Positions 21,415 to 34,605 of a stretch of DNA of 53,480 bases are shown piece by piece. The stretch spans positions 1-53,480 of the IMG/VR virus record IMGVR_UViG_3300047557_000938. The stretch is one strand, 5' to 3'. Made by a program: the position numbers and the translations under genes. The stretch's first letter is position 1, and every line of letters starts with the position of its first letter. The DNA comes from a virus. The notes beneath the pieces were generated by a model. It worked only from the letters and a program-made list of their open reading frames with translations, had not been told where the DNA came from and did no database searches.

Positions 21415-22097
21415 CGTTGCGCTCCTTCTTGTCGACCAAGATTAGGCCATAGTTCCTCGTCCCGCATGGCGTGACCCCAGAAATGTGCCGCGACCGTTTC
21501 CTCGAAAATAACAGGTTGTTGGTTGGGCATGAACGGGTTGCAGTAGCGGGACGTCCACACTTCGACGTGATCAAACTGTTCTTTCTTGACTGCGGTGAGT
21601 AGTTTCGGGCCGGTCACCCAGTCCATGCTTCGCCCCTCGGCGCGATGTACCGACTCTGGGATTGCTTCAATAACAGCGGTCATGAGTGGGTGTTGAGGGA
21701 CCGCTGCCATGAAGGCGTTGGAGATTAGCCACCCATCTACTTCGTAGGCCAGGAGGGCTTCGCGGTCACAGAAGTCGGTCGGCAGGGCGCGTATCGGTTT
21801 CATGTCGCAGTTGAGGTAGAGGCCGCCTTCGTTGTAAAGGATCTCGTAGGCTGCGATGTCGGCTTGCGTGACTTGGATCATGGTCGCTTCCTTAGCGTCA
21901 CCTCGCGCCGGTGTCCATGTGACCCCACAGGAATCGAACTCGGCTTGATTCTGCAGAGGCGGAAGATCTTCGTATCCCCAGTCGCGTAGTTCCCAGCCCG
22001 GGTTGAGGGCTATCCATTCCTCACCGAACCGCCGATACAAGTCCGGCATGGGTCGGGGGCCGAACCAGATGCGGTGCATCAGTTTGGGGATCGCCAC
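21405..22097 (-). CDS. Glycosyltransferase with DXD motif (OCH1/sug-binding type)
   Basis: A 230-residue protein beginning with GTG, AAGGAG five bases upstream. IPKLMHRIWFGPRPMPD at the start, YEILYNEGGLYLNCDMKPIR (the D-x-D-type sugar-nucleotide site is NCD-M) and HFWGHAMRDEELW near the end are typical of the glycosyltransferase sugar-binding DXD family (Gly_transf_sug). It belongs to a four-gene minus-strand operon with an epimerase and another glycosyltransferase, all overlapping, and so takes part in building a modified glycan. Confidence 0.8.
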   Translation of the reverse strand: MAIPKLMHRIWFGPRPMPDLYRRFGEEWIALNPGWELRDWGYEDLPPLQNQAEFDSCGVTWTPARGDAKEATMIQVTQADIAAYEILYNEGGLYLNCDMKPIRALPTDFCDREALLAYEVDGWLISNAFMAAVPQHPLMTAVIEAIPESVHRAEGRSMDWVTGPKLLTAVKKEQFDHVEVWTSRYCNPFMPNQQPVIFEETVAAHFWGHAMRDEELWPNLGRQEGAQRYN

Positions 22098-23092
22098 GTC
22101 ACTCCTTCGTTGTCCTTGAACCACTGGACCGTTTCGCTGATTCCTTGGTCGAGGGGCGTGAAACTGTTCGGATCGATGCCGATCACTTTTAGGGTGCTTG
22201 TGTCGGCTGACACGACGGTGCCGAGTTGCTTGACGGTGCGCCTGACGTCGATGGGCCGGAGTTCTGGGGCGGCGGATAGTACGGCCTTGACAACGGCGTC
22301 GACGGCTTGTGGGGTGGCGAGTGGGCCTCCCTCGGGTTCGCCGGGGCGCATCGGGACGGCTTCGATGATTGCCCCACCGACGGCGCTAGACACGGCTTGT
22401 GCGACTTCGAGGACCGTGTGTGGCATGGGGTTGCCTACGTCAATGGGGTAGTCGGGAATGATGCCTTGATTGGCGGCTTCGAGTGCGGCGACGAAGCAGC
22501 GAGCCACGTCTCGAACGTGGACGGAGTCGCTGTATTGAACACCGCCGCCGTAGAGCCTCATGGGATCTCCTGAGAGGGCTGAGCAGACAAACGATGGAAC
22601 GATTTTGCGGACCTTAGAGGGCCCGTAGGGGGCCGGGGCTGACTGGCGTGGCCCGTAGGCGTTCATGGGCCGTACGGCCACGATTCGGGCTCCTCGGTCC
22701 TCCCTGTACATGCCGACGAACTGCTCCCCCGTCGTTTTCGTTATGCAGTAGGTGCCTCGGCCGATACCTGAGTTCCCTACGGCGGCGAACACGCAGGGCA
22801 GGTCGTAGCGGGCTGCCGCCTCGAACACGTTGAGGGTGCCGACGATGTTGGTTTCTGCTGCGGGGCCGGGGTTGTCGATGGTCTCGGCGGTCCCGAGGAC
22901 TGCCGCGAGGTGGATGATGCCGTCGACGTGTGCGGCGAGTTCTTGCACGATTGTGGTGTCCCGTACGTCTCCGTAGAGGCCCCAGCCTTTACCGCGATGG
23001 TCGAGGACGAGTGCCTCGTGGCCTTTGGCTTCGAGTTCCGCTAGTACCCACGATCCGATGAAGCCGTGTCCACCGGTTACGCCAATCTTCAT
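22079..23092 (-). CDS. NAD-dependent sugar epimerase/dehydratase (extended SDR)
   Basis: A 337-residue protein with ATG in an ATGA overlap and GAGGAG upstream. MKIGVTGGHGFIGSWVLAEL is the NAD-binding Rossmann motif, GIIHLAAVLGT follows, and GTYCITKTTGEQFV holds the catalytic Tyr-x3-Lys. RPMNAYGPRQS is the usual substrate-loop sequence of UDP-glucose-4-epimerase and GDP-mannose-dehydratase relatives. It makes an activated sugar for the two adjacent glycosyltransferases. Which nucleotide sugar cannot be read. Confidence 0.85.
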   Translation of the reverse strand: MKIGVTGGHGFIGSWVLAELEAKGHEALVLDHRGKGWGLYGDVRDTTIVQELAAHVDGIIHLAAVLGTAETIDNPGPAAETNIVGTLNVFEAAARYDLPCVFAAVGNSGIGRGTYCITKTTGEQFVGMYREDRGARIVAVRPMNAYGPRQSAPAPYGPSKVRKIVPSFVCSALSGDPMRLYGGGVQYSDSVHVRDVARCFVAALEAANQGIIPDYPIDVGNPMPHTVLEVAQAVSSAVGGAIIEAVPMRPGEPEGGPLATPQAVDAVVKAVLSAAPELRPIDVRRTVKQLGTVVSADTSTLKVIGIDPNSFTPLDQGISETVQWFKDNEGVTWRSPN

Positions 23093-23733
23093 TTGAGACT
23101 CCTCACGACTGCTCGCCAATATCCTTCATCAACGCCCAGGCTTATGTTGTGATCGGCGAGACGATAAATGTAGTCGGCTTGCTGACTCGCTGTGAAGCGG
23201 GCTTGTTGTTTGGCGCAGCCGATCCAGAACGCCCAGTCCTCGAAGAGCATGTCGCGGAAGGGGTTCCCGTGCCAGAGCCACTTGCGAAATGGGGAGCCAG
23301 AGAAGACAAGATTGTTCTCCACATCAAGAACGTCTTGATGCCTGAAGTCGGAGGGCAGAAGGTTGTAGGCGCCTTGCGGGCTATTGACTTGGATGCCGAA
23401 CATGAGTATGTCGGCGTCTTCGGGTAGATGATTGAAGGCGTGGGGTAGAAGTAGATCGTCCACGTCCATCTTGCATATCCACTCGGTGTCGCAGGCTTGG
23501 ATAGCCTCATTGACGAGAACTTGCGGGTGATGGCTGAACGTTGTGGTGGAGCGGATTACGGTTCCGCTGCACGGCATGTCTTTCACCATACTAAGAAGGT
23601 CACTTGTTATCAGTTCGGTGACTATCCCATAACAGTCGGGTGCGGTTTCAAGCCGAGCGGCGGCCTCGATCCATTCCGGCAGAAAGGCTCTGTATGTGTC
23701 GCCGTGGACGACGGTGACGAGCCCGATGCTCAC
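23089..23733 (-). CDS. GT-A (family 2-like) glycosyltransferase
   Basis: A 214-residue protein starting with GTG in a GTGA overlap. MSIGLVTVVHGDTYRAFLPE, then CDTEWICKMDVDDLLLPHAF (metal-binding D-x-DD) and FEDWAFWIGCA in the acceptor region identify a GT-A fold enzyme. It is coupled to the epimerase gene downstream and the peptidoglycan-binding gene upstream, an unusual mix that suggests action on a cell-wall or virion glycan. Confidence 0.78.
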   Translation of the reverse strand: MSIGLVTVVHGDTYRAFLPEWIEAAARLETAPDCYGIVTELITSDLLSMVKDMPCSGTVIRSTTTFSHHPQVLVNEAIQACDTEWICKMDVDDLLLPHAFNHLPEDADILMFGIQVNSPQGAYNLLPSDFRHQDVLDVENNLVFSGSPFRKWLWHGNPFRDMLFEDWAFWIGCAKQQARFTASQQADYIYRLADHNISLGVDEGYWRAVVRSLK

Positions 23734-30384: not shown

Positions 30385-30610
30385 ACCGTTGAGGGTGCCA
30401 AACGAGTACGAGCGTGCTCAGTTAGACATCGTGAAGGACATAAACGAAACAATCATAAAGAACATTGAACGGAATAAGGCTCTCTCCAAGGATCGCCGCG
30501 AGCGAGTCCTCTCCCTCCTGGCTGAAGGCTGGTCGATGTACGGCATCGCTCTAGAAACAGGCATCACCCCCAACACCGTGAAGAGAATCGTGGAGTCCAA
30601 GCATGAGTGA
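30377..30610 (+). CDS. Small HTH protein, 77 aa
   Basis: AAGGAG lies 7-12 bases before the ATG. The C-terminal segment RVLSLLAEGWSMYGIALETG with ITPNTVKRIVES is a sigma-70-region-4 or resolvase-type helix-turn-helix. The N-terminal half is a charged helix (IVKDINETIIKNIERNKAL). It immediately precedes the DNA-modification operon and overlaps its first gene, so it may regulate it. Confidence 0.65.
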   Translation: MPRPLRVPNEYERAQLDIVKDINETIIKNIERNKALSKDRRERVLSLLAEGWSMYGIALETGITPNTVKRIVESKHE

Positions 30611-31412
30611 CGCACTCGAGATTGAAATGATCCCATTGAAAGACGTTCGACTGGACCCGAAGAATGCACGCTCCCACTCCGAGCGAAACCTAGAGGCGAT
30701 AATGGAGTCGCTGCGCCAGTTCGGTCAGCGCAAGCCCATCGTGGTCACTCACGACGGGATGGTCGTCGCCGGCAACGGGACCGTGGAAGCGGCACAAAAT
30801 CTAGGCTGGACTCAAATCTCCGCCACGCGTATCCCCGACGACTGGTCGCGGCAGCAGATCACCGCCTACGCGATTGCAGACAATCGAACTGCTGAACTCG
30901 CATCATGGGACTCCGAGATCCTCGTTCCAGCACTCGCCGAACTTGAAGCGGCTGGAATGTTGGAGTGGACAGGCTTCACTCAATACGAGTTGCAGAACTG
31001 GGACTCGCTGGCTCTGCGAGGAGGCCTGCCAGGTGGCGACTCCAGGTTAGACAACGACGAAGAGATTGACCCTGACGAGGAGCAAGGATCACTACTCGCA
31101 CTTGCGGATGTGACAGTTGCAGAGCCGAAACATGAAGTAGCGCAGCATGACATATTCATGCTCACTATGCCGAAGCATGATGTGACGCATGTCTTGATCG
31201 TTGCAAACGTGATGAAGGAATGGACCCTCTGGGCTGACTACTTACAAGGCGAAGCGATCTTCGTTCCCTTCCCTGATCCATTCATCACTGGAACGGACGT
31301 GGCTCGCAAACAGCCTCTTGTTTTAGTGCAACCCGATTACTACATGGCGGGTCATGTCCTCGACAAGCACGCCGCCTTCTATGGTGAAGAGCACGTAACG
31401 AGGATGCCGTGA
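30603..31412 (+). CDS. ParB-like protein of the 7-deazaguanine operon
   Basis: A 269-residue protein. Residues 10-70 (IPLKDVRLDPKNARSHSERN, FGQRKPIVVTHDGMVVAGNG, TVEAAQNLGW) form the ParB/Srx N-terminal domain; ADNRTAELASWDSEIL and FTQYELQNW follow. In ParB-methyltransferase fusions this region leads into a methylase; here the C-terminal 120 residues (HDIFMLTMPKHDVTHVLIVA and later DYYMAGHVLDKHAAFYGEEH) keep a vaguely similar layout but I see no SAM-binding FxGxG or DPPY motif. ParB-like proteins often sit next to DpdA in phages. It may bind DNA for the modifier. It ends in a GTGA overlap with dpdA. Confidence 0.75.
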   Translation: MSDALEIEMIPLKDVRLDPKNARSHSERNLEAIMESLRQFGQRKPIVVTHDGMVVAGNGTVEAAQNLGWTQISATRIPDDWSRQQITAYAIADNRTAELASWDSEILVPALAELEAAGMLEWTGFTQYELQNWDSLALRGGLPGGDSRLDNDEEIDPDEEQGSLLALADVTVAEPKHEVAQHDIFMLTMPKHDVTHVLIVANVMKEWTLWADYLQGEAIFVPFPDPFITGTDVARKQPLVLVQPDYYMAGHVLDKHAAFYGEEHVTRMP

Positions 31413-32308
31413 AGAAGAAGAACACAGGAGGCGGGACGTTCGACAAGAACGAGCAACCCGTCTACTTCATCGCGTCCGGCCCCACGCAACTAGAGATCGC
31501 GCAAGAGATCACCGACCATCTGCTTGTTGCCGTAAACGAGTTGGAATCCCCAAAAGCAATCGAACAGTTCGACAAGATGCTCGACACGGGAGCAAAGGTG
31601 TTTCTGGACTCCGGCATCTTCAACTTGACCAACAGGCACATGCGTGCCCACGGCATCACCATGGACGAAGCCCTAGCACTCGCGCCAGACGAGATTGACG
31701 GCTTCGACAAACTGTGGGACAACTACTGCGAGATTGTGACCCGATTCGCCAATCGCGTGTGGGGCTTCATCGAACTTGACCAAGGTGGAGCGATCAACAA
31801 ACGCAAGACTCGAGCGCGTATCGAAAAAGAAACAGGGTTGATTCCTGTTCCCGTCTATCATCCACTCAACGACGGCTGGGACTACTTCAATGAACTCGCA
31901 AAAGAATATGATCGGATCTGTTGCGGCAACGTCGTGCAGGCGAATCAAGCCACACGCAAGCGGTTGATTACAACCTTGTATGAACGGCAAAGACAGGATC
32001 ATCCCGATACTTGGATTCATTTCTTGGGCTTCACTCCGAACGAGTGGGTTCATGCGGCGCCGTTCTACGGCTCTTGCGACTCGTCCTCCTGGCTCGTGAA
32101 TGTCCGATGGTCCAGGGCGCATCGAAGTCAAGGAGCGTGCAAGCGGGTCGGTGGGTTCGTGTACGGCATGAGATACAAGTACGGCAGCGACTACACGGAC
32201 GACAACGGTTACGAGAGGGCTATCCGTTTCGCGGGAGCGCAAGGCGGCTGGTTCTTGGAGAAGTCTTGGAAGGCATACATGAACGAGAGGGAAGAGGTGT
32301 TCGGATGA
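31409..32308 (+). CDS. dpdA: DpdA-like DNA guanine transglycosylase
   Basis: A 299-residue protein of the TGT superfamily. KVFLDSGIFN (Asp67) matches the base-recognition Asp of TGT enzymes; IELDQGG (122-127), IPVPVYHPLNDGWDYFNEL, ICCGNVV and IHFLGFTP follow the barrel order; YGSCDSSSWLV places Asp224 where TGT has its catalytic nucleophile. It lacks the C-terminal zinc domain of tRNA enzymes, as DpdA proteins do. It would exchange guanine in DNA for a 7-deazaguanine, protecting the genome against restriction. The neighbouring QueD, QueE and FolE genes support this role over a tRNA role. Confidence 0.82.
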   Translation: MKKKNTGGGTFDKNEQPVYFIASGPTQLEIAQEITDHLLVAVNELESPKAIEQFDKMLDTGAKVFLDSGIFNLTNRHMRAHGITMDEALALAPDEIDGFDKLWDNYCEIVTRFANRVWGFIELDQGGAINKRKTRARIEKETGLIPVPVYHPLNDGWDYFNELAKEYDRICCGNVVQANQATRKRLITTLYERQRQDHPDTWIHFLGFTPNEWVHAAPFYGSCDSSSWLVNVRWSRAHRSQGACKRVGGFVYGMRYKYGSDYTDDNGYERAIRFAGAQGGWFLEKSWKAYMNEREEVFG

Positions 32309-32649
32309 CGGAAGTGTGGTGCACCTTCGAGAAGGTCGGGTTCCATCATTGGCCCGACGCGGCGGACATTCTTCCCCGTCGAGCGTATCTGTCGGATCGT
32401 CACAGGCATCTGTTCAAGATGCGGATCACCGTGCCCGTACTGCACGACGACCGCGACATTGAGTTTCATGAACTGCGCGACTACGCCGAGGAGTGGTGGC
32501 CCGAAGGCGGCGAGATGGGTTCCATGAGTTGCGAGGCAATAGCGCAATCGCTCGGGGCTCACATCATGGACGGGTTCCACATTCCGTGGGTTGAAGTTGA
32601 AGTGTCAGAAGACGGCGAGTGTGGAGCAAGCGTTAGGATGGAAACATGA
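32305..32649 (+). CDS. QueD-like (T-fold) protein of unknown activity
   Basis: A 114-residue protein coupled by overlaps to dpdA and queD. By eye it follows the T-fold pattern of the QueD encoded next: FHHWPDA (His14/15), DRHRHLFKMRIT (His33-x-His35) aligned with VHGHNYVVKVT, then DIEFHELRDYAEEWW with FLLDYNDLKPFGHWL, SCEAIAQSLGAHI with SAENMAQYFAFMV, and VEVSEDGECGA with VSVSETPKTWA (Glu102 for the pterin-anchoring Glu). The usual catalytic Cys before HxH is missing and a Cys76 occurs elsewhere. It could be a partner subunit or an enzyme that changes the deazapurine further. Confidence 0.65.
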   Translation: MTEVWCTFEKVGFHHWPDAADILPRRAYLSDRHRHLFKMRITVPVLHDDRDIEFHELRDYAEEWWPEGGEMGSMSCEAIAQSLGAHIMDGFHIPWVEVEVSEDGECGASVRMET

Positions 32650-33014
32650 CGTTCAGGATCAGTAAAGAGTTCTCATTCTCGTCATCGCATCAACTCCACG
32701 GGCTTAGAGAAGGCCACCCATGCGGTCGCGTTCACGGTCACAACTACGTCGTGAAGGTCACCCTGTCGGGTGAGAAGTTGAACGGCAGCGGGTTCCTGTT
32801 GGACTACAACGACTTGAAGCCTTTCGGTCACTGGCTGGACGACGAGTTGGATCATCGCCACTTGAACGACGTTCTCAACTTTCAACCCTCAGCCGAGAAC
32901 ATGGCGCAATACTTCGCCTTCATGGTGGAGAACACGGTGAACGTTCCCGAGGGAGTGAACATCAGCGTGTCCGTGTCGGAGACTCCTAAGACCTGGGCGA
33001 CCTGGGAGAACTGA
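32646..33014 (+). CDS. queD: 6-carboxy-5,6,7,8-tetrahydropterin synthase
   Basis: A 122-residue protein with all QueD hallmarks: SSSHQL (His15), PCGRVHGHNY (Cys26 nucleophile, His30 and His32 zinc ligands), LDHRHLND (catalytic His70/72 region) and SETPKTW (Glu112, which holds the pterin). QueD turns 7,8-dihydroneopterin triphosphate into CPH4, the second step towards preQ0. It starts in an ATGA overlap and ends in TGATG with queE. Confidence 0.92.
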   Translation: MTFRISKEFSFSSSHQLHGLREGHPCGRVHGHNYVVKVTLSGEKLNGSGFLLDYNDLKPFGHWLDDELDHRHLNDVLNFQPSAENMAQYFAFMVENTVNVPEGVNISVSVSETPKTWATWEN

Positions 33015-33736
33015 TGAACATGGCGGAAGAGATCGCCGAACTGAAACTCGTTCTAGATGTGAATGAGATATTCGGCCCCACCGTACAAGGCGAAGGCCCA
33101 TCGACGGGTGTTCGCTGCGCGTTCCTTCGACTGTCCGGCTGCAACCTCACTTGCGTATGGTGCGACACCCCGTACACGTGGGACTGGAAAGGTCAAAACG
33201 GCACGCCGTACTCCAAGGAAGCCGAAACGCACCCCATGTCGGTCCACGACGTATGGTTTCAACTAACCGGCTACGGTGTTCCCTTGTATGTCATCTCGGG
33301 CGGTGAACCCATGATGCAGCAGGAGGCTCTAGGAGCGTTGATCCCCCGACTCATGGCTGGCGGCAAACAAGTCGAGGTGGAAACGAATGGAACAATCAAG
33401 CCGAAGATCGAGCCCACCCGATTCAACGTGTCACCGAAACTCACTCACTCGGGAGTGCGCGAGAAGATCAGATTCAAGCCCGAAACGTTGAACGCCTACG
33501 TCGGTCGCTCCATTTTCAAGTTTGTGTGTCAGACAGTGAAAGACCTGGACGAAGTGATGTTCATGGCAGCCGAAGCCGACATACCCGACAGCGCGATTTG
33601 GATCATGCCCGAAGGACGCGACCCCGTAACACTCATGTCTCACGCCGAGGCGATCACGGACGAAGCGATCGCTCGAGGCTGGAACATCACAGGCCGACTT
33701 CACGTGATGACGTGGGGCGCAAGGAGAGGTGTATGA
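33014..33736 (+). CDS. queE: 7-carboxy-7-deazaguanine synthase (radical SAM)
   Basis: A 240-residue protein. [20 protein letters not shown] is the QueE signature, [18 protein letters not shown] carries the Cys43-x3-Cys47-x2-Cys50 cluster motif, and [10 protein letters not shown] the SAM-binding glycines. [11 protein letters not shown] and LQVMPEGRDP-like [12 protein letters not shown] follow. It rearranges CPH4 to CDG, making the deazapurine ring. It ends in an ATGA overlap with the FolE fusion gene. No QueC gene follows. Confidence 0.93.
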
Positions 33737-34605
33737 AACTCACATGGCAAGACATTGAGATCGAAGCCCGCAATCTGGCGAAGCGCTGGGCGGGTCGCTC
33801 CTTCTCAGGTGTCTACGGCGTGCCGCAAGGTGGAGTGCCCGTCGCGTTGATCGTGTCGGACCTTCTTGATCTGCCTATTCTTGACGAGCCAGACATTCAC
33901 GCCTTGATCGTGGATGATCTAGTGGACTCAGGTCGCACCCTCTCTAGATACAACCAGGCGTGCGACGCCCTGTATCGGAAGCCCCATTCACCGAATCATC
34001 TCGCTGTTGGAGCGACCGAGGTGGACGAGTGGTTGATCTTCCCGTGGGAGAAAGACGACGGCGATCCGAACGAGATCGTTGTGCGGCTCCTGGAGTACGT
34101 GGGTGAAGACCCGACTCGGGAAGGACTCTTGGACACACCGAAGCGAGTGTTGAAGGCGTTCCGTGAAATGACAGAGGGGTACAAGAAAGACCCCGGCGAG
34201 ATTCTCTCCACTGTGTTCAACGAGGACTTCGATCAGATGGTGTGCCTTCACAACATCGAGTTCGTGTCCATGTGCGAGCACCACTTGCAGCCGTTCCGTG
34301 GAACAGCCGCCGTCGGCTACATACCCAACGGGCAGGTCGTGGGTCTATCCAAGTTGGCTCGCCTCGTAGACGCCTACGCTCGCCGCCTTCAAGTGCAGGA
34401 ACGCATGACGGAGCAGATCGCTGCTGCAATGAACGAGCATCTTGCGCCCGCAGGAGTCGCCGTCTACATTGAAGCGCATCACTCCTGCATGGGTAACCGT
34501 GGTGTTCGCAAGCATGAAGGCCGCATGGTTACACAGAAACTGACGGGGCTCATGAAGGATGATGCCGCCGCACGCGCCGAGTTCATGGGGCTAGTTCAGA
34601 AATAG
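33733..34605 (+). CDS. folE: Phosphoribosyltransferase-GTP cyclohydrolase I fusion
   Basis: A 290-residue two-domain protein. Residues 1-110: [14 protein letters not shown] and the PRPP motif [14 protein letters not shown] (57-70), then [10 protein letters not shown] (98-106), where the Trp and P-W-E match the base-stacking end of guanine/xanthine phosphoribosyltransferases. Residues 112-290: [24 protein letters not shown] (zinc Cys181, His184), [28 protein letters not shown] and [12 protein letters not shown] (zinc Cys252), a complete type I FolE. FolE makes dihydroneopterin triphosphate from GTP. The fused transferase could recapture guanine released by DpdA as GMP. ATG lies in an ATGA overlap after AGGAGAGG. 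Confidence 0.9.

Follow-up and report, generated by a model that had tools for sequence, protein, structure and literature searches.

What does a distant relative of QueD contribute to a viral deazaguanine operon that also encodes a canonical QueD? The question is raised by a 114-residue open reading frame between dpdA and queD in the window, i.e., the whole stretch analyzed here, which is a 53,480-base viral sequence record (Table 1). We refer to its product as TF, for QueD-like T-fold protein; the frame lies exactly where the preliminary description had placed it. The genes run in the order ParB-like, dpdA, TF, queD, queE, and PRTase-FolE, with dpdA-TF-queD-queE-(PRTase)folE forming a tightly packed operon in which TF shares ATGA overlaps with dpdA on its upstream side and with queD on its downstream side. 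Elsewhere, the window carries a WhiB gene, an ERF-type recombinase, an amidase, and a Mu-type portal.

Two of the neighboring genes have features of their own. The ParB-like gene is short, and its similarity to ParB-methyltransferase phage proteins (phrog_498) covers their N-terminal part. The last gene of the operon places a phosphoribosyltransferase (PRTase)-like domain N-terminal to FolE, and a separate PRTase gene adjoins FolE in related loci. In tubercidin synthesis, passages of PMC6112128 describe TubE as a phosphoribosyltransferase of 7-carboxy-7-deazaguanine (CDG).

Table 1. Position and basis of assignment of the features discussed, in window coordinates
Feature	Position	Strand	Basis
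NAD-dependent epimerase	22082..23119	-	PF01370 E 2e-36
ParB-like protein	30603..31412	+	phrog_620 E 1.4e-38; abuts dpdA
dpdA-like transglycosylase	31409..32308	+	phrog_887 'queuine tRNA-ribosyltransferase' E 1.5e-23
TF, QueD-like T-fold protein, phrog_17812 family, candidate CDG decarboxylase, 114 aa	32305..32649	+	ORF with ATG start; phrog_17812 E 7.7e-26; AlphaFold T-fold; QueD structural match
Codon His14, presumed first metal ligand, end of strand 1	32344..32346	+	72/72; metal role inferred from QueD/PTPS
Codons His33-Arg34-His35 (HxH), presumed metal ligands, start of strand 2	32401..32409	+	H33, H35 72/72; strand 33-44
Codons His47-Glu53 (HDDRDIE), family-specific loop preceding helix 1, with candidate residues for proton donation and carboxylate binding	32443..32463	+	H47, R50, E53 72/72; roles inferred
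Codons Ser75-Cys76-Glu77, counterpart of QueD S-A-E	32527..32535	+	hhalign; S75, E77 72/72
Codon Glu102, presumed anchor of the base's 2-amino-4-oxo-pyrimidine edge	32608..32610	+	aligned to conserved Glu112 of window QueD; 72/72
queD (6-carboxytetrahydropterin synthase)	32646..33014	+	TIGR03367 above cut-off; PF01242 E 1.1e-31; canonical Cys, HxH, Asp-His by alignment
queE (CDG synthase, radical SAM)	33014..33736	+	phrog_2076 E 2.5e-59
Phosphoribosyltransferase-like domain, then FolE (GTP cyclohydrolase I)	33736..34605	+	PF01227 E 3.2e-71; PF00156 E 1.7e-4, below cut-off; phrog_8995 E 4.2e-9

Fold and conserved residues of TF

TF gave no match to Pfam or NCBIfam at E <= 1, PF01242 and TIGR03367 included, and a PHROG search placed it over residues 3-111 in phrog_17812, a family to which no function is assigned. 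The protein is related to QueD, does not match the QueD/PTPS family profile, and is not itself a QueD. The AlphaFold model (pLDDT 93.5, pTM 0.86; 49 aligned relatives as input) features strands at 3-14, 33-44, 95-102, and 106-113 and helices at 54-64 and 76-91, the strand-strand-helix-helix-strand-strand order of T-fold proteins. A Foldseek search of the PDB with this model ranked E. coli QueD first (E 9.7e-6, TM 0.76), and VIA-align likewise placed E. coli QueD ahead of the other solved structures (Z 13.2, with 108 residues superposed at 2.1 A and 19% identity); its other matches included dihydroneopterin aldolase (Z 12.8), urate oxidase (10.9), and the QueF-like structure 5k0p (10.6). The T-fold suspected in the preliminary description, set there against an unrelated fold, is what structure prediction recovers.

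At the level of sequence, the two proteins are far apart. A pairwise BLASTP of TF against the window QueD was not significant (E 1.1), and the TF family profile, run against the sequences of solved structures, met only chance bacterioferritin matches (E 0.064 or worse). Profile-profile comparison by hhalign, with a 14-row QueD profile, reached a probability of 90% and E 1.4e-6 across the C-terminal half, pairing SMSCEAIAQSL of TF with QPSAENMAQYF of QueD and VEVSEDGECGA with VSVSETPKTWA. An alignment to the adjacent QueD had earlier been made by eye; it does not hold up as a plain sequence pair, but its motif pairing reappears between the profiles. Given the structure matches together with this profile-profile similarity, TF is a distant QueD relative.

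Conservation was counted over 72 aligned distinct rows, the window copy included. G12, H14, A19, L29, H33, H35, F37, H47, R50, E53, F54, S75, E77, V100, E102, and D103 are invariant (72/72), while R34 is kept in 71 rows and C76 in 69. In QueD and PTPS, three His bind zinc and a Glu near the C terminus binds the base. H14, H33, and H35 of TF sit as the zinc His of QueD do, both by sequence and by strand order, and the HxH, SCE, and VSEDGE motifs originally picked out by eye are the conserved ones, since H33, H35, S75, E77, and E102 never vary and C76 rarely does. The catalytic Cys of QueD (C26, in HPCGRVHGHNY), reported as missing in the preliminary description, indeed has no counterpart in TF, and neither does the Asp-His pair; the window QueD has both. 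H47, R50, and E53 are invariant in TF and are not QueD features. The TF of phage Roos, outside the 72 rows, has H47 displaced by one position, and those of PA5oct and Ahp1 read HFH instead of HRH.

The residues that never vary among the 72 relatives have the appearance of an active site, and nothing points to the carrier subunit that had been offered as a second option for this protein. The loss of QueD's Cys and Asp-His pair could nevertheless indicate a catalytically dead QueD paralogue, serving as a subunit or carrier, or one that completes a split active site with phage QueD variants lacking metal His; in ACP17, phiST, and other TF loci, QueD has lost two presumed metal His and kept its Cys and Asp-His. 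We regard this explanation as highly improbable. The window QueD is canonical, TF carries invariant polar residues of its own, and the same QueD variant occurs in BcepGomr, where QueC is present and TF absent, so the variant is independent of TF. A split enzyme combining the metal site of TF with the Cys and Asp-His of variant QueD was discarded on the strength of the window and BcepGomr sequences.

The QueD variant takes FRQW and HGY forms, each without two of the three presumed zinc His, and was seen in loci L001, L002, L004, L005, L007, L024, L036, L052, and L157 as well as in BcepGomr.

Genomic partners of TF and near-exclusion with QueC

TF occurs in 27 of 50,697 phage records in a protein search, always annotated as hypothetical or equivalent, and its carriers include Acidovorax phage ACP17, Xanthomonas phage X1, Cellulophaga phage phiST, and the Pseudomonas PA5oct group. 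Viral contigs yielded at least 598 matching stretches, 80 of which were kept, and 84,980 species genomes yielded 7 matches. A survey of gene neighborhoods, as recommended at the outset, shows that the deazapurine partners QueE and transglycosylase recur around TF. Within the fetched flanks of 88 TF loci, many of them truncated, and with profiles built from these same loci, we counted transglycosylase-type genes, divided into four kinds, in 79, a glycosyltransferase-like gene in 63, FolE in 57, QueE in 42, and QueD in 17. Among 46 TF records, several of which are near-duplicates of one another, 39 gave a strong QueE match. All seven without one are fragments, and in one of these the radical-SAM matches were weak throughout.

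QueC, on the other hand, was above cut-off in none of these 46 records, with weak sub-cut-off matches in six. Its profile (PF06508) found nothing in the window record and was positive in 12 of 14 control genomes. Named phages show the same pattern: the 12 that carry TF include 11 with QueE (Roos is the exception) and one with QueC above cut-off, Vibrio phage D479, whose match is partial and weak (32.8 bits, profile positions 133-201 only), while all 17 QueE phages chosen as controls encode QueC and none encodes TF. The near-exclusion has a Fisher p of 3.5e-7, to be read as a guide because the phages are not independent. Controls were taken from named phages since the window QueE, used as a query against viral contigs, gave 6 loci only, too few for the purpose.

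The alternation can be followed around one conserved cluster. Sections of PMC9025141 describe FolE, QueC, a queuine tRNA-ribosyltransferase, and QueE in a single cluster of the Stenotrophomonas Menderavirus phages, kin of ACP17. ACP17 itself encodes FolE, a homologous transglycosylase, a glycosyltransferase-like gene, TF (ASD50405.1; the phiST protein is AGH56765.1), and QueE, with no QueC match above cut-off in its genome. The transglycosylase was found in 16 records of Stenotrophomonas phages, and the TF searches found no TF in phages of this host. QueC and TF thus alternate between Menderavirus and ACP17.

Of 38 TF records, 24 had QueD above cut-off (PF01242); among the 21 longer than 100 kb, 18 did and the remaining three had no QueD match. 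The low QueD count in fetched flanks (17/88) had suggested that TF stands in for QueD, a reading dropped in view of these record-wide figures, since TF cannot simply be a QueD replacement where QueD is so often present.

The transglycosylases are diverse. The commonest kind, of about 511 aa (e.g., L026:5756-7288), lies near TF in 58 of the 88 loci and is without a match in Pfam and PHROG searches. Its structure model (pLDDT 88.8) aligned by VIA-align to T. maritima TGT with Z 20.1, and all 50 rows were TGT; Foldseek returned no match at E <= 0.001 and a list mixing TGT with xylanases. As modeled, this gene type, which in marine viral contigs is found near TF more often than any other, is a predicted and unrecognized type of DpdA, which gives a name to a common transglycosylase unseen by Pfam and PHROGs. 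It may be the DpdA3 reported by Cui et al. 2023. By hhalign, the three other types resemble the window dpdA type weakly (probability 1 to 15%). The type of ACP17 and X1 is identified by the annotation of X1 itself, by its hhalign match to the homologous commonest type (probability 94%), and by 36% identity to a gene from Vibrio phage nt-1, which parts of PMC6884629 give as the phage of DpdA2. For the phiST type, a transglycosylase identity is suggested by motifs (HFLG, DN/DS). As a transglycosylase detector, phrog_887 was positive in 3 of 46 TF records, a figure that we do not count as absence because the profile misses the other types.

Proposed decarboxylation of CDG

In excerpts of PMC6884629 and PMC6112128, QueC converts CDG to preQ0. 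Phages with TF, going by their gene content, appear to encode CDG synthesis and do not encode their own route onward to preQ0. The absence of QueC from the phage is no proof against preQ0, as hosts may supply QueC. Nevertheless, a QueD-like fold with a different active site, present where QueC is missing, suggests that TF probably removes the carboxyl group of CDG. We therefore propose, with a rough probability of 0.6, that TF decarboxylates CDG and that DpdA then inserts 7-deazaguanine into phage DNA; reaction, substrate, product, metal, and residue roles are all predictions. The expectation that TF tailors the deazapurine, made when the gene was first described, is accordingly the most likely reading of this deazapurine DNA-modification operon.

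The scheme would run as follows. FolE, QueD, and QueE would produce CDG, and TF would take the place of QueC, binding the base in the T-fold manner with Glu102 on its guanine-like edge. The 7-carboxylate would be held by a metal, probably zinc, on His14, His33, and His35 together with Arg50, and His47, the candidate proton donor, would protonate C7 as CO2 is lost. The adjacent DpdA would then exchange guanine in phage DNA for the 7-deazaguanine product. With its base-binding Glu, likely metal site, and invariant Arg, TF is well suited to binding CDG through the carboxylate, and decarboxylation is the simplest step that leaves DpdA a usable base, with a second substrate unnecessary. Excerpts of PMC6112128 propose decarboxylation in the tubercidin pathway for TubF, a UbiD-type enzyme, so the T-fold would not be the sole solution to this reaction. 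In parts of PMC6884629, phage Bipper (Hutinet et al. 2019), which lacks QueC only, is suggested to carry CDG itself; Bipper was not among the TF records in our searches.

Several observations do not sit easily with plain decarboxylation. It does not explain the glycosyltransferase-like gene near TF in 63 of the 88 loci (phrog_4356 E 1.5e-4), often with an NAD epimerase nearby. TF might instead add or exchange a group at C7 of CDG other than by removing CO2, yielding another DNA base and possibly an acceptor for the neighboring glycosyltransferase, and the exclusion of QueC would fit equally. We find this quite unlikely, given that the 114 residues of TF include no ATP-binding or transferase domain and that the window and its nearest loci (L004, L005, and L009) show no such glycosyltransferase. 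D479, with both TF and a partial QueC-like match, and the three large TF records without a QueD match also count against decarboxylation.

The glycosyltransferase-like gene (L026:8702-9700 and 62 further loci) and the accompanying NAD epimerase suggest DNA sugar modification in these phages. The window has an NAD-dependent epimerase gene as well (Table 1), distant from the deazaguanine operon.

Chromosomal copies provide a further test case. TF is present in 4 of 392 sampled genomes from the genus of Streptomyces sp. NEAU-Y11, and three copies are intact (L095/L096, L116, and L117). The first lies with QueD, FolE, a deaminase, and an FAD oxidase; the second with QueD and FolE2; and the third with QueD and an ORF resembling FolE2 by eye. 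Neither transglycosylase nor QueE was found near any of the three, and QueE was strong in one of these genomes, elsewhere on the chromosome, and not matched strongly in the other two. The fourth copy (L118), a broken TF overlapping a transglycosylase-like fragment, is the remains of a phage operon. In our tree, the Streptomyces copies fall within the clade of the window, beside phage contig L009 (clade 98/97; long branches, bootstrap not settled), and the anchoring Glu102 is changed in them. One FolE/FolE2-QueD-TF set also neighbors an adenylosuccinate-lyase-like gene.

These sets, with their eroded Glu102 and the lack of a strong QueE match in two of three genomes, weigh against decarboxylation and are compatible with a role on a pterin (e.g., dihydroneopterin triphosphate or 6-carboxytetrahydropterin), in which TF would act upstream of QueE or alongside it, either assisting QueD or producing a separate pterin, with the QueE link and the lack of QueC as side effects of lineage. 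The closest folds to TF are, likewise, pterin enzymes. We judge this alternative unlikely, as the phages retain QueE and miss QueC, the CDG user, and QueD accompanies TF in most records, above all the large ones. Furthermore, the Streptomyces clade is nested within that of the window and has lost Glu102, so its members may have changed function: TF could have been captured and perhaps re-purposed there or, alternatively, it could use a pterin. Possibly, the Streptomyces FolE/FolE2-QueD-TF sets are small natural-product loci derived from actinophages, and these copies are in any case a lead to a possible natural-product pathway.

If decarboxylation is correct, phages would put CDG to two uses, with QueC leading to preQ0-type bases and TF to bare 7-deazaguanine, a base that has no C7 group yet lacks N7 and could thereby stop enzymes that recognize guanine through its N7. 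A pterin-synthase fold would be capable of decarboxylation; a two-gene marker (TF present, QueC absent) would predict the DNA base of many uncultured viruses; and many 'hypothetical' genes of marine and Pseudomonas jumbo phages would be explained. A much bolder extension, which we regard as a long shot, would see in TF a new chemistry on the PTPS scaffold, i.e., metal-dependent decarboxylation of an aromatic acid free of organic cofactors, with the bared C7 glycosylated by the adjacent glycosyltransferase in large phage clades and the Streptomyces FolE-QueD-TF set captured for a QueE-independent pterin or deazapurine metabolite.

Comparison with known systems

TF shares the T-fold, three presumed metal His, the S-x-E motif, and the base-binding Glu with QueD/PTPS (PF01242, TIGR03367), and it differs in lacking the catalytic Cys and Asp-His pair and in its additional invariant H47, R50, and E53. 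QueF and QueF-like enzymes are also T-fold proteins, and QueF acts on a 7-deazaguanine base with a C7 group (preQ0); they rely on a thioimide-forming Cys, whereas TF has no invariant Cys (C76, within the S-x-E motif, is kept in 69/72 rows). TubF, as portrayed in portions of PMC6112128, resembles the role proposed for TF in its own proposed removal of the 7-carboxyl of a CDG-derived compound, but it is unlike TF in size and family, being a 422-aa UbiD-family protein that acts on a nucleotide with prenylated FMN as its proposed cofactor. Dihydroneopterin aldolase (FolB), close to TF in structure (Z 12.8), has the T-fold and a guanine-like substrate; the genomic partners of TF, in contrast, are deazaguanine synthesis genes. 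To our knowledge, the HxH and QueD-like motifs of TF are not expected in FolB.

The literature searched contained no earlier description of the near-exclusion of TF and QueC, of the TGT partner missed by Pfam and PHROGs, or of the capture in Streptomyces. No paper describing DpdL, or 2'-deoxy-7-deazaguanosine (dDG) together with ACP17 or phiST, was found in the open-licence literature searched. Cui et al. 2023 (NAR 51:9214) reportedly detected dDG in the DNA of phages and put forward DpdL as a predicted CDG decarboxylase, and the TF family is probably this DpdL, whose phages presumably overlap those with TF in Cellulophaga phiST and Acidovorax ACP17. The statement that the protein has no assigned role therefore holds for the libraries used here, where phrog_17812 is unnamed, and would probably yield to the reported DpdL prediction. 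The likeness, drawn from a shared expected substrate (CDG) and pathway, is consistent with our own criterion for DpdL-type genomes, in that the TF set combines QueE and transglycosylase with no QueC. Overall, TF is probably a new member of a family whose function has been predicted in earlier literature, and the window copy falls in a separate clade that has a DpdA type of its own and Streptomyces relatives.
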